DNA from: a virus
Direction: 5' to 3' (one strand)
Length of the DNA stretch: 23,756 bases
IMG/VR virus record: IMGVR_UViG_3300020428_000084
Coordinates: 1 to 23,756 of that record
Positions 4,475-7,087 of the stretch are shown one piece after another. Below the pieces are notes generated by a model, which ran no database searches, had not been told where the DNA came from, and saw only the letters and a program-made list of their open reading frames with translations. The number at the start of each line of letters is the position of its first letter. Positions within the stretch are counted from its first letter, which is position 1. Position numbers and translations under genes: made by a program.

Positions 4475-5398
4475 ATGTCTTTTGCAGACCTTAAGCGTAA
4501 ATCCCAGACCAACTTTGACTTCCTTCAAAAGGAACTAGAGAAATCATCCAGCGGTAAGAACGTTGATGAACGTTTCTGGAAACCAGAGGTTGACGCTTCT
4601 GGAAATGGATACGCTGTTATCCGTTTCCTCCCTGCCCCAGAAGGTCAAACCCTTCCTTGGGCAAAACTATACTCCCACGCCTTCCAAGGTGTTGGTGGGT
4701 GGTACATTGAAAACTCTCTGACTACACTCAACGAGAAGGATCCCGTTGGTGAAGTGAACCGCCGTCTCTGGAACAGCGGTGCAGATGAAGACAAAGAGAC
4801 TGCTCGTAAGCAGAAGCGTAAGCTTCAGTATTACAGCAACATCTATGTCGTGAAGGATCCTAAGCACCCTGATAATGAAGGTAAAGTATTCCTTTACAAG
4901 TATGGCAAGAAGATCCATGATAAGATCCTCGCTGCTATGCAACCTGAATTCCAAGATGAGACACCAACTAATGTCTTTGACCTTTGGGAAGGTGCTAACT
5001 TTAAACTGAAGATCAAGAAAGTTGCAGGTTACTGGAACTATGATTCTTCTGAGTTTGATTCTGTCTCTGCTCTGTCAGCTGATGATGATCAACTAGAAGC
5101 AATCTGGAAGAGTGAGCATTCCCTTGAGGCATTCACTCACAAAGATCAGTTCAAGTCTTATGAAGATCTTGAGAAGCGTCTGAACATGGTGCTTGGTATC
5201 ACTCAACGCACTGCTGCTCCTACAGTAGATAGCGAAGAGTATGAACCAGTCGCTGCTACTGGTGGGTTCAACGATCCTGACATCACTGGTGGATCTTCTT
5301 TCCGTCAGCAGATGAGTGCTCCCTCTCCTGTCAAGGAAGAAGCAATCGTTGAGGATGATGATGCCCTGTCCTACTTTGCACGTCTTGCAGAGGAGTGA
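4475..5398 (+). CDS. 32: Single-stranded DNA-binding protein gp32
   Basis: Binds ssDNA cooperatively and organises replication, recombination and repair proteins. The 307-aa product has the three gp32 parts: a basic N-terminus FADLKRKSQTNF (LAST-like Lys-Arg-Lys-Ser motif for cooperativity), an aromatic/basic core (residues about 30-215; e.g. GYAVIRFLPAPEG, GGWYIENSLTTLNEKDPV, RKLQYYSNIYVVKDPKHP), and an acidic C-terminal tail (EEAIVEDDDALSYFARLAEE) that recruits partners. It contains no cysteine, so the zinc-finger ligands of T4 gp32 are lost. It has its own consensus promoter, an A-rich leader without a ribosome site (compatible with autogenous control as in T4, inferred), and codon use and GC content that look higher than in the tail genes. 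Stop overlaps the next ORF (TGATG). Confidence 0.95.
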   Translation: MSFADLKRKSQTNFDFLQKELEKSSSGKNVDERFWKPEVDASGNGYAVIRFLPAPEGQTLPWAKLYSHAFQGVGGWYIENSLTTLNEKDPVGEVNRRLWNSGADEDKETARKQKRKLQYYSNIYVVKDPKHPDNEGKVFLYKYGKKIHDKILAAMQPEFQDETPTNVFDLWEGANFKLKIKKVAGYWNYDSSEFDSVSALSADDDQLEAIWKSEHSLEAFTHKDQFKSYEDLEKRLNMVLGITQRTAAPTVDSEEYEPVAATGGFNDPDITGGSSFRQQMSAPSPVKEEAIVEDDDALSYFARLAEE

Positions 5399-5525: not shown

Positions 5526-5554
5526 GGAGATCCTGACAAGGGTCTCCTTTTTTT
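5526..5554 (+). terminator. Rho-independent terminator after the gp32 operon
   Basis: An 8-bp stem (GGAGATCC 5526-5533 with GGGTCTCC 5540-5547, one G-T pair) with a 6-nt loop and seven T (5548-5554). It closes the gp32 transcript 11 nt after the 38-aa ORF. Confidence 0.9.
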
Positions 5555-5571: not shown

Positions 5572-5592
5572 GGGTTAACATCAAGATAACCC
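5572..5592. repeat. Inverted repeat GGGTTA-N9-TAACCC
   Basis: A perfect 6-bp inverted repeat (5572-5577 and 5587-5592) in the gap between the gp32 terminator and the Pho-type promoter. The two GTTAAC/GATAAC half sites are 11 nt apart, the same period as the Pho repeats downstream, so this may be an outlying PhoB-type site. No gene lies in 5515-5696. Confidence 0.4.
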
Positions 5593-5612
5593 GCTCTATA
5601 TAACGAGGTTTG

Positions 5613-5667
5613 CTTTAAGTCAAGTTAACTTGATCTTAAAGACAGATCTGAAAGAGTTTGTTATAAT
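5613..5667 (+). promoter_or_regulatory. Pho-box-like promoter for the mini-barrel gene and pstS
   Basis: Three TTAA cores at 5615, 5625 and 5636 (10-11 nt period) sit within TTTAAG, GTTAAC and CTTAAA half sites, as in cyanobacterial PHO boxes (8-bp CTTAAC-type repeats spaced by 3). They end where the -35 should be; a perfect TATAAT follows at 5662-5667 with no other -35. The same stretch is a 29-nt palindrome with one extra base (CTTTAAG 5613-5619 against CTTAAAG 5635-5641 around TCAAGTTAACTTGA). Activation by host PhoB under phosphate limitation is inferred from this layout and from the pstS gene downstream. Confidence 0.75.
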
Positions 5668-5696
5668 AACCAAGTAATCACATTACAAGAAAACAA

Positions 5697-6059
5697 ATGA
5701 AAGCATTCGCAGTTGTCCTGCTCGGTTTGGCGATCTCCGCCCCCGCAGCAATGGCAGGTCCATATGTAGAGTCCAAGCACGAGTTCAAAGGCACTGATGA
5801 GGACTACTCCAAGACAGTCCATCAGGGTCGTGTCGGATATTCAACCAAAGTAGGTCGTCTCTCTCCTTATATTGAAGGTGGCCTTGGGGTTTCTTATCCT
5901 GATGCTGGTGATAGTGACACCTTTAAGGTTCTAGAAGTTGGAACCAAAGTAAAGATCACTGATTCATTCAGTGCATATGGTAAGTGGGAAAATGTCTTCC
6001 AAGATAGTGATGACACTCGCGACTGGAAAGTTGAAATGGGCACCAAGTACAAGTTCTGA
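5697..6059 (+). CDS. Small secreted beta-barrel-like protein (copy 1, with pstS)
   Basis: A 120-aa protein with a clear signal peptide (MKAFAVVLLGLAISAPAAMA, cut before GPYV). The mature part, about 100 residues, alternates polar and hydrophobic residues in about six strands (e.g. HQGRVGYSTKVG, LSPYIEGGLGVSYP, FKVLEVGTKVKIT, FSAYGKWENVF) and ends in an aromatic residue, VEMGTKYKF, as outer-membrane barrel proteins do for BAM recognition. It is homologous to the protein at 22658-23029 (shared AGPYV after the signal and Y-G/G-T-K ... KY-F ends). It is first in a Pho-type operon with pstS 29 nt downstream, so a role at the outer membrane under phosphate stress is plausible. There is no Shine-Dalgarno before its ATG. 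No named family is recognised. Confidence 0.8.
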   Translation: MKAFAVVLLGLAISAPAAMAGPYVESKHEFKGTDEDYSKTVHQGRVGYSTKVGRLSPYIEGGLGVSYPDAGDSDTFKVLEVGTKVKITDSFSAYGKWENVFQDSDDTRDWKVEMGTKYKF

Positions 6060-6088: not shown

Positions 6089-7087
6089 ATGAGAAACTCA
6101 CTACTAATCGCAGCGGGCTTAACTGCTGCCGTCACTATTCCCACAGTTGCACAGGCTTTCTGGTGGGGTGGGGACAAGCAGGCAGACACCCCTGCTGTAT
6201 TCAAACTAGACGCGGCGGGTGCGACTTTTCCAGCACCCTTATACACAGCATGGTTCCAAGCATTTAATGAAGAGACTGGCAACCAAGTAAACTATCAAGC
6301 AGTTGGTAGTGGTGCTGGTGTCCGTCAGTTCACTGCAAAGACAGTTGATTTTGGTGCCTCTGATGGTGCTGTAAGTGATGCCAAGAAGAAACTACCCATG
6401 GTCCATGTGCCCATGACTGGTGGTGCTATTGTTCCTGCTTACAACTATCCTGGTTGTGATGCCAAGATGACACAGACACAACTTGCTGATGTCTTCCTTG
6501 GTAAGATCACTAACTGGTCTGCATTTGGTTGTGCTGATAAGAATATCGTCACAGTCCATCGTTCTGATGGTAGTGGCACCACAAAAGGTTTCACTAACTC
6601 ATTGTCAGCATTCTCTCCCGAGTGGAAGAAGAATGTTGGTACTGGTAAAGCAGTAGCGTGGCCTGTTGGTATTGGTGGTAAAGGTAACAGTGGTGTTGCT
6701 GCTGGTATCAAAAACCTTGAAGGTGCTATTGGTTACCTGAACTATGGTTATGTTGTTAACAGTAATGATTTCCAACAAGTATCCTTACAAAACAAAGCAG
6801 GTAACTATGTCACAGCAAATGCTGAAACATCTGCAGCAGGTCTATCAAGAATCGTCTTGGACGATCAGCTTCGTGGTGCTGACGCTAACCCTGCTGGTGC
6901 CAACGCATATCCTATTGTCTCCCTTACTTGGGTCCTAGCATACCCAGAGTCTGCTCCTGGAGTCAAGGAAACTCTTCGTTATATGTTGAGTGAGAAGGCA
7001 CAGGCTAAATCTGATGGTCTTGGTTATGTTCCTCTCCCAGAGGACCTTCGTCAGAAAGCACTTGCTGCTGTGGAAACGCTAAACTGA
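6089..7087 (+). CDS. pstS: Phosphate-binding protein PstS
   Basis: Periplasmic substrate-binding protein of the host PstSCAB high-affinity phosphate transporter; phage copies raise phosphate uptake during infection. The 332-aa product has a signal peptide (MRNSLLIAAGLTAAVTIPTV, then AQA-FWW) and the PstS phosphate-loop motifs GATFPAPLY, GSGAGVRQF and SDGSGTT, with later GKGNSGVAAGIK and GAIGYLNYGY. ATG 6089 is set by AGGAG (6075-6079) at 9-nt spacing; the ATG at 6082 is too close to it and in another frame. It shares the Pho-type promoter at 5613-5667 with the upstream mini-barrel gene and ends in a terminator. Base composition looks richer in GC and host-like than the neighbouring tail genes, in keeping with acquisition from a cyanobacterium. 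Confidence 0.97.
   Translation: MRNSLLIAAGLTAAVTIPTVAQAFWWGGDKQADTPAVFKLDAAGATFPAPLYTAWFQAFNEETGNQVNYQAVGSGAGVRQFTAKTVDFGASDGAVSDAKKKLPMVHVPMTGGAIVPAYNYPGCDAKMTQTQLADVFLGKITNWSAFGCADKNIVTVHRSDGSGTTKGFTNSLSAFSPEWKKNVGTGKAVAWPVGIGGKGNSGVAAGIKNLEGAIGYLNYGYVVNSNDFQQVSLQNKAGNYVTANAETSAAGLSRIVLDDQLRGADANPAGANAYPIVSLTWVLAYPESAPGVKETLRYMLSEKAQAKSDGLGYVPLPEDLRQKALAAVETLN

Follow-up and report, generated by a model that had tools for sequence, protein, structure and literature searches.

What does a near-perfect inverted repeat do in a promoter that already carries direct repeats of the Pho type, and does its symmetry belong to those repeats or to a second site? The question is raised by the window, meaning the whole 23,756-nucleotide stretch of DNA that was analyzed, which comes from a T4-like cyanophage with Synechococcus and Prochlorococcus phages as its named relatives. 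That host PhoB governs cyanophage pstS is already known, and Zeng and Chisholm (2012) reportedly showed the control of P-SSM2 pstS. A second conserved operator, if real, would mean that the phages respond to an additional signal from the host ahead of phosphate-binding protein synthesis.

The palindrome upstream of the OMP gene and pstS

The palindrome lies in the gap between gp32 (single-strand-binding protein, 4475-5398) and a pair of plus-strand genes, one for a cyanophage outer-membrane-protein-like (OMP) product (PF24653, 120 aa, 5697-6059) and the other pstS for the phosphate-binding protein (phrog_5385, 6089-7087). The P-SSM2 orthologues of the pair are PSSM2_247, the homologue of the OMP gene, and pstS. 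A terminator-like hairpin with a T-run is present on the plus strand 3' of the gp32 region (5526-5554). The palindrome itself, which has no assigned strand, spans 29 nt (5613-5641) and reads CTTTAAG TCAAG TTAA CTTGA (T) CTTAAAG, with 14 perfect pairs and a single-base bulge, the extra base at 5634. Its TTAA cores begin at 5615, 5625, and 5636, at spacings of 10 and 11 nt. Within it, at 5619-5634 and likewise without assigned strand, is a putative operator, GTCAA-GTTAAC-TTGAT, with its dyad axis between 5626 and 5627 and one mismatch (GTCAA for ATCAA) from the motif ATCAA-N6-TTGAT.

No stronger palindrome occurs in the 23.8-kb window, the runner-up having 11 pairs. When the window was dinucleotide-shuffled 200 times, the best palindrome had 13 pairs, and 2000 shuffled versions of the 298-nt intergenic region gave at most 11, so that 14 pairs were never reached. 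This bears out the preliminary description of a near-perfect inverted repeat with one extra base and TTAA cores 10 and 11 nt apart, and a chance palindrome was rejected since the shuffles fail to reach 14 pairs. That the feature reflects chance or a sequencing artefact is barely conceivable; matches to the motif with at most one mismatch are no commoner in the window than expected by chance (2 found versus 2.87), but the relatives contradict this explanation. The exact extended motif, TCAANTTAACTTGATNTTAA, was found in 36 IMG/VR stretches, in 29 of them before an OMP gene, with 4 cut by the contig end and 3 elsewhere.

The palindrome might instead contain no second site and arise from PhoB repeats built on the palindromic TTAA, perhaps with PhoB bound in both directions. 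TTAA reads identically on both strands, and the three cores come close to forming a 10/11-nt ladder. When these cores were held fixed and the remaining positions randomized, however, only 20 of 200,000 trials reached the observed 14 pairs, and the symmetry therefore does not follow from the TTAA cores themselves. The relatives described below, in which the arms are lost jointly while the repeats are retained and the motif recurs at other places without TTAA cores, also argue against this explanation, which we consider decidedly improbable, and the by-product account was rejected as the full cause on the basis of the fixed-core trials and of the loss of arms where the repeats stay.

Promoter elements and Pho-type direct repeats

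The preliminary description had the TTAA cores standing in place of a -35 element. This is wrong: a -35-like hexamer, AAGACA (5639-5644, plus strand), precedes the -10 hexamer TATAAT of the promoter, here called P2 (5662-5667, plus strand), by a 17-nt spacer, with TG at 5659-5660 upstream of the -10, and together the hexamers match the sigma-70 pattern at 10 of 12 positions. Only the last TTAA touches AAGACA, overlapping it by one base. The (N)GACA of the hexamer is mostly retained in relatives, and those with the element 11 nt nearer to the -10 (L132, L134, and L314) lack GACA.

The direct repeat of the Pho-box type, GTTAACTT-GAT-CTTAAAGA (5624-5642, plus strand), has an 11-nt pitch and contains the middle and right TTAA cores; read by eye, its halves match PyTTAAPyPy(T/A), given as the Pho box consensus in a part of PMC10976474, at 7 of 8 and 6 of 8 positions. 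We collected 100 distinct OMP-gene upstream regions from IMG/VR, the window included. TTAA-N7-TTAA was exact in 58 of these 100, a set that includes OMP paralogues at 25 to 37% identity not known to precede pstS, as compared to 3.6 per 100 for shuffles, and the Pho-type repeat was kept in 42 of 44 aligned relatives. Together with the PhoBR control of P-SSM2 pstS described in a section of PMC10976474, the 58 of 100 upholds the earlier claim of Pho-type direct repeats ahead of the pstS operon. CTTA-N7-CTTA has been applied to cyanophage genomes as a Pho box pattern (PMC3037559), and predicted Pho boxes in a phage were judged unreliable without binding tests in a passage of PMC10976474. The window resembles the cyanobacterial Pho box (PhoB/SphR), which has also been reported in cyanophages, in its TTAA direct repeats of 11-nt pitch upstream of pstS; it differs in that the repeats are interleaved with a 16-bp inverted repeat that can be lost without them and in that a -35-like hexamer is present.

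A second promoter-like unit is seen farther upstream in the window (5573-5612) and in relatives (L001, L003, L021, L148, and others), where a Pho-like TTAA-N7-TTAA pair is followed by CTCTATATACnnAGGTTTG. In the window this putative promoter, P1, comprises the repeat GTTAACAT-CAA-GATAACCC (5574-5592, plus strand), a pair of the TTAA-N7-TTAA type conserved in relatives, and TATATA as its proposed -10 (5597-5602, plus strand) in the conserved context CTCTATATACnnAGGTTTG. Scanning for this upstream promoter with the pattern TATATACNNAGGTTTG proved too unspecific, most of the 120 stretches retrieved being unrelated. On this arrangement of elements, the OMP/pstS operon would be driven by two tandem Pho-type promoters.

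The inverted repeat in related promoters

The conserved core of the palindrome proved to be ATCAA-N6-TTGAT and not the outer TTAA ladder. The motif was exact in 32 of the 100 upstream regions, compared with 0.1 per 100 for shuffles, and the same half-sites at spacings of N3, N4, N5, N7, N8, or N9 were exact in 0 of the 100. Mismatches to it were bimodal over 133 regions, a set partly fetched by the motif itself, with 56, 12, 5, and 40 regions having 0, 1, 2, and 3 mismatches, respectively, and 20 having four or more.

Among 42 relatives keeping the middle and right TTAA, both arms were present in 25, the left only in 2, the right only in 1, and neither in 14 (Fisher p = 3e-8, kinship ignored). 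Ten rows fetched by the palindrome scan alone were left out of this count, and the 2 of 44 rows lacking the two TTAA cores were not tabulated. Seven of the 42 had come through the P1 pattern scan (L178, L230, L249, L254, L263, L266, and L270), and the palindrome pattern, too, retrieved three of these (L254, L263, and L270); with all pattern-fetched loci removed and pstS-followed rows kept, the corresponding counts were 18, 2, 1, and 12 over 33 rows. On the OMP tree, six independent pairs on supported branches, too few for significance, showed the right arm changing with the left in 4 to 5 and against it in about 0 (median p = 0.06). A minimum of 23 gains or losses is required to explain the distribution of the motif over 97 rows of that tree, which is poorly resolved.

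Because the arms are kept or lost jointly while the repeats stay, and because the two arms occur together at other places in related promoters, the results sustain the earlier view of the symmetry as an additional feature and a possible site for a second regulator. We conclude that the palindrome is genuine and comes on top of the Pho repeats, in the form of a recurring, movable 16-bp inverted repeat. The alternative offered in the preliminary description, PhoB in both directions as the cause, fared poorly: the leftmost TTAA (5615-5618, plus strand), 10 nt from the next core, is the most variable of the three and was disrupted in 8 of the 25 rows with both arms, whereas ATCAA/TTGAT is the conserved part. 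That description had also staked its reading on close relatives not losing the symmetry while keeping the direct repeats. This held for L033 and L060, which carry the full window version, but not for L027, L044, L045, L058, and L120, which retain the TTAA repeats and the promoter layout of the window with the right arm gone.

The placement of the site varied among phages. We sorted 97 proteins, partly by hand, according to the site in their upstream regions: 43 nt before the -10 in 20, one turn nearer in 3, overlapping the -10 in 4, around it in 2, just after it in 12, upstream in 4, and no recognized site in 52, two of which have weak matches left uncounted. About half of the relatives lack it, so Pho control does not depend on the site. 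The whole element lies 11 nt, or one helical turn, nearer to the -10 (32 nt) in L132, L134, L136, and L314, which are three contigs and SynMITS9220M01. The exact site is on or adjoining the -10 in P-SSM2 and P-SSM7, and the motif overlaps or abuts it in L094 and L100, surrounds it in L105 and L158, lies 3' of it in Sf-FP1, Sf-CH3, and Sf-CH11, and stands upstream of a classic Pho box in S-SM1 and S-E7. P-SSM2, with its PhoBR-controlled pstS operon, shares with the window the orthologous PSSM2_247-pstS pair, a Pho-type repeat, and the inverted repeat, which is exact in P-SSM2; the inverted repeat overlaps the -10 in that phage, whereas the window's copy is placed inside the Pho repeats, 43 nt ahead of the -10.

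Named phages gave a similar range. Ten of 22 examined with an OMP gene and pstS (a set including P-SSM7, P-SSM3, S-SM1, and P-RSM1) have an exact site, with P-SSM2, P-SSM7, and S-SM1 among the carriers. No exact site was found in the podovirus P-SSP2, where the OMP gene precedes a photosystem gene and not pstS, or in S-RIM12, which has pstS with no OMP gene annotated before it. Across 18 named phages (3.51 Mb) there were 23 exact ATCAAN6TTGAT sites, 8 of them at the OMP/pstS promoter, compared to 2 sites for the reversed control pattern. Five of the other 15 were examined (three in S-SCSM1 and two in P-SSM2) and all are intragenic, the OMP/pstS promoter copy being the only non-coding one in P-SSM2 and S-SCSM1.

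In twelve carriers (group C) the motif takes the form of a hairpin directly after the -10. Hairpins at that place in other phages differ in sequence, and the group C site may therefore be an RNA feature. A hairpin with a T-run right after the predicted start, resembling an attenuator, was noted in L061, L092, L103, L108, and Sf-CH11 (L322), and the hairpins there in L085, L096, and L145 differ in sequence. Separately, upstream of the OMP gene in L070, L142, L144, L146, and L069, a long inverted repeat encloses the -10 in its loop, and a T-run often comes next; in L070, for example, GACCTCTGT-TACAAT-ACAGAGGTC forms a terminator-like hairpin overlapping the promoter. Promoter type is only loosely coupled to OMP phylogeny, and similar proteins with different promoter types (L021/L069 and L093/L095) suggest that promoter cassettes are exchanged between phages.

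An RNA origin was also considered for the palindrome of the window, as one hairpin of the P1 leader, alongside an outer stem and another hairpin spanning the P2 -10. All three elements form in predicted folds. For the outer stem and for the second hairpin, own partners gave better pairing than swapped partners (reached in 0 of 5000 permutations for each, kinship ignored). The palindrome arms behave likewise over all 43 rows with a left arm (reached in 5 of 5000), and L051 may represent a case of compensation (TTTAAAATC/GATTTTAAA). Among the 29 motif carriers, however, own pairing of the arms was no better than swapped (516 of 5000), with conserved sequence and no covariation, and the 14 non-carriers gave 485 of 5000, so that the pooled value is explicable by the contrast between carriers and non-carriers. 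No Rfam family matched in the window, and the P1 start site is itself a predicted one. Conservation of the arms in sequence suits a DNA site. We regard the RNA hairpin as an improbable cause of the palindrome, disfavored by the arm swap test, although the leader around it may still be structured. A transcript from the upstream TATATA would begin GGTTTG and is predicted to be able to fold with the outer stem and the hairpin around the P2 -10. The possible structured leader covers 5607-5699 in the window, 1516-1632 in L001, 1826-1943 in L148, and 1326-1443 in L311; its outer stem is GGTTTGTC/GACAAACC or GGTTTACC/GGTAAAC, and its hairpin is GAAGACC/GGTCTTC with the P2 -10 in the loop.

Candidate readers of the inverted repeat

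The motif ATCAAN6TTGAT coincides with the core consensus of ArsR sites in a portion of PMC9137774, whose authors showed ArsR binding to related sites. Links between arsR and phosphate genes appear in parts of three further sources: cyanobacterial arsenic clusters contain pstS, sometimes with arsR immediately upstream (PMC4284471); arsR is among the phosphate-acquisition genes or clusters of Prochlorococcus (PMC10504305); and arsR is tabulated beside a phosphate-binding protein in Nodularia (PMC9846622). The motif has the half-sites and six-base spacing of the ArsR operator and likewise overlaps promoter elements; in cyanobacteria, arsR can adjoin pstS. The window site differs from that operator in being a putative site, with one mismatch, in a lytic phage promoter that also has a Pho box, and in that the phages searched lack arsR. 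HTH_5 (PF01022) was found in 0 of 19 records (the window and 18 named phages), which sets aside a phage-encoded ArsR for these records and leads us to expect a host protein.

The reading that we favor, at a little short of an even chance, combines activation of the PhoB type with a distinct operator at which a dimeric host protein, most likely an ArsR-family repressor, would bind. Protein binding, the ArsR-like host identity, and the direction of regulation are all inferred from sequence, and the window's own site would be bound by ArsR only presumptively. The OMP/pstS operon of the phage would be driven by a composite promoter, in which a host PhoB-type activator would read the TTAA direct repeats at 5624-5642, ending at the -35, and a separate dimeric repressor would read the 16-bp inverted repeat of the ATCAA-N6-TTGAT class at 5619-5634. 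In the window the putative operator overlaps the Pho repeats, and by sharing DNA the activator and the repressor would compete. With a host ArsR-family protein as the likeliest reader of the inverted repeat, full expression of the operon would require both phosphate scarcity, with PhoB active, and an inactive repressor, released for example by arsenite made from arsenate that enters via the phosphate transporter. We propose more tentatively that marine cyanophages repeatedly place a host ArsR operator in pstS promoters, at positions that vary relative to the Pho box, as a two-input circuit in which PhoB would report lack of phosphate and ArsR would report arsenic stress, i.e. the arsenate-to-phosphate ratio.

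The main rival to an ArsR-type repressor is a separate operator for another dimer, either a different host regulator, such as the Crp-family protein PtrA of marine Synechococcus, or one encoded by the phage. Every sign that the arms form a unit apart from the Pho repeats fits another dimer too. Sites of the Crp/FNR type run TTGAT-N4-ATCAA or TGTGA-N6-TCACA, but TTGAT-N4-ATCAA was exact in 0 of the 100 regions. The confinement of the motif outside genes to the OMP/pstS promoter in P-SSM2 and S-SCSM1 suits a host regulator over a phage master regulator. PtrA is described as needed for phosphate regulation in Synechococcus WH8102 in a portion of PMC9846622. On balance we find another dimer rather unlikely.

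If ArsR is the reader, viral phosphate acquisition would be linked to arsenate, a phosphate analogue, and marine cyanobacterial viruses may respond to two signals of the host simultaneously. The relocation of the site over many phage promoters also makes it instructive for the study of regulatory-site turnover in viruses. The closest comparison for host PhoB on phage promoters is the set of S-PM2d genes bound by Synechococcus WH7803 PhoB, which are different genes, as given in a part of PMC10976474; the main text of that paper does not mention "palindrom," "inverted repeat," or "arsen." An ArsR site in cyanophages was not treated in the titles and abstracts returned by our literature search. 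A scan of genome contigs with the phage PstS returned one contig, L328 (CAJXMP010000220.1), which is cyanophage-like and lies in a metagenome-assembled genome (MAG) titled Lewinella, where it is probably a viral contamination of the bin.
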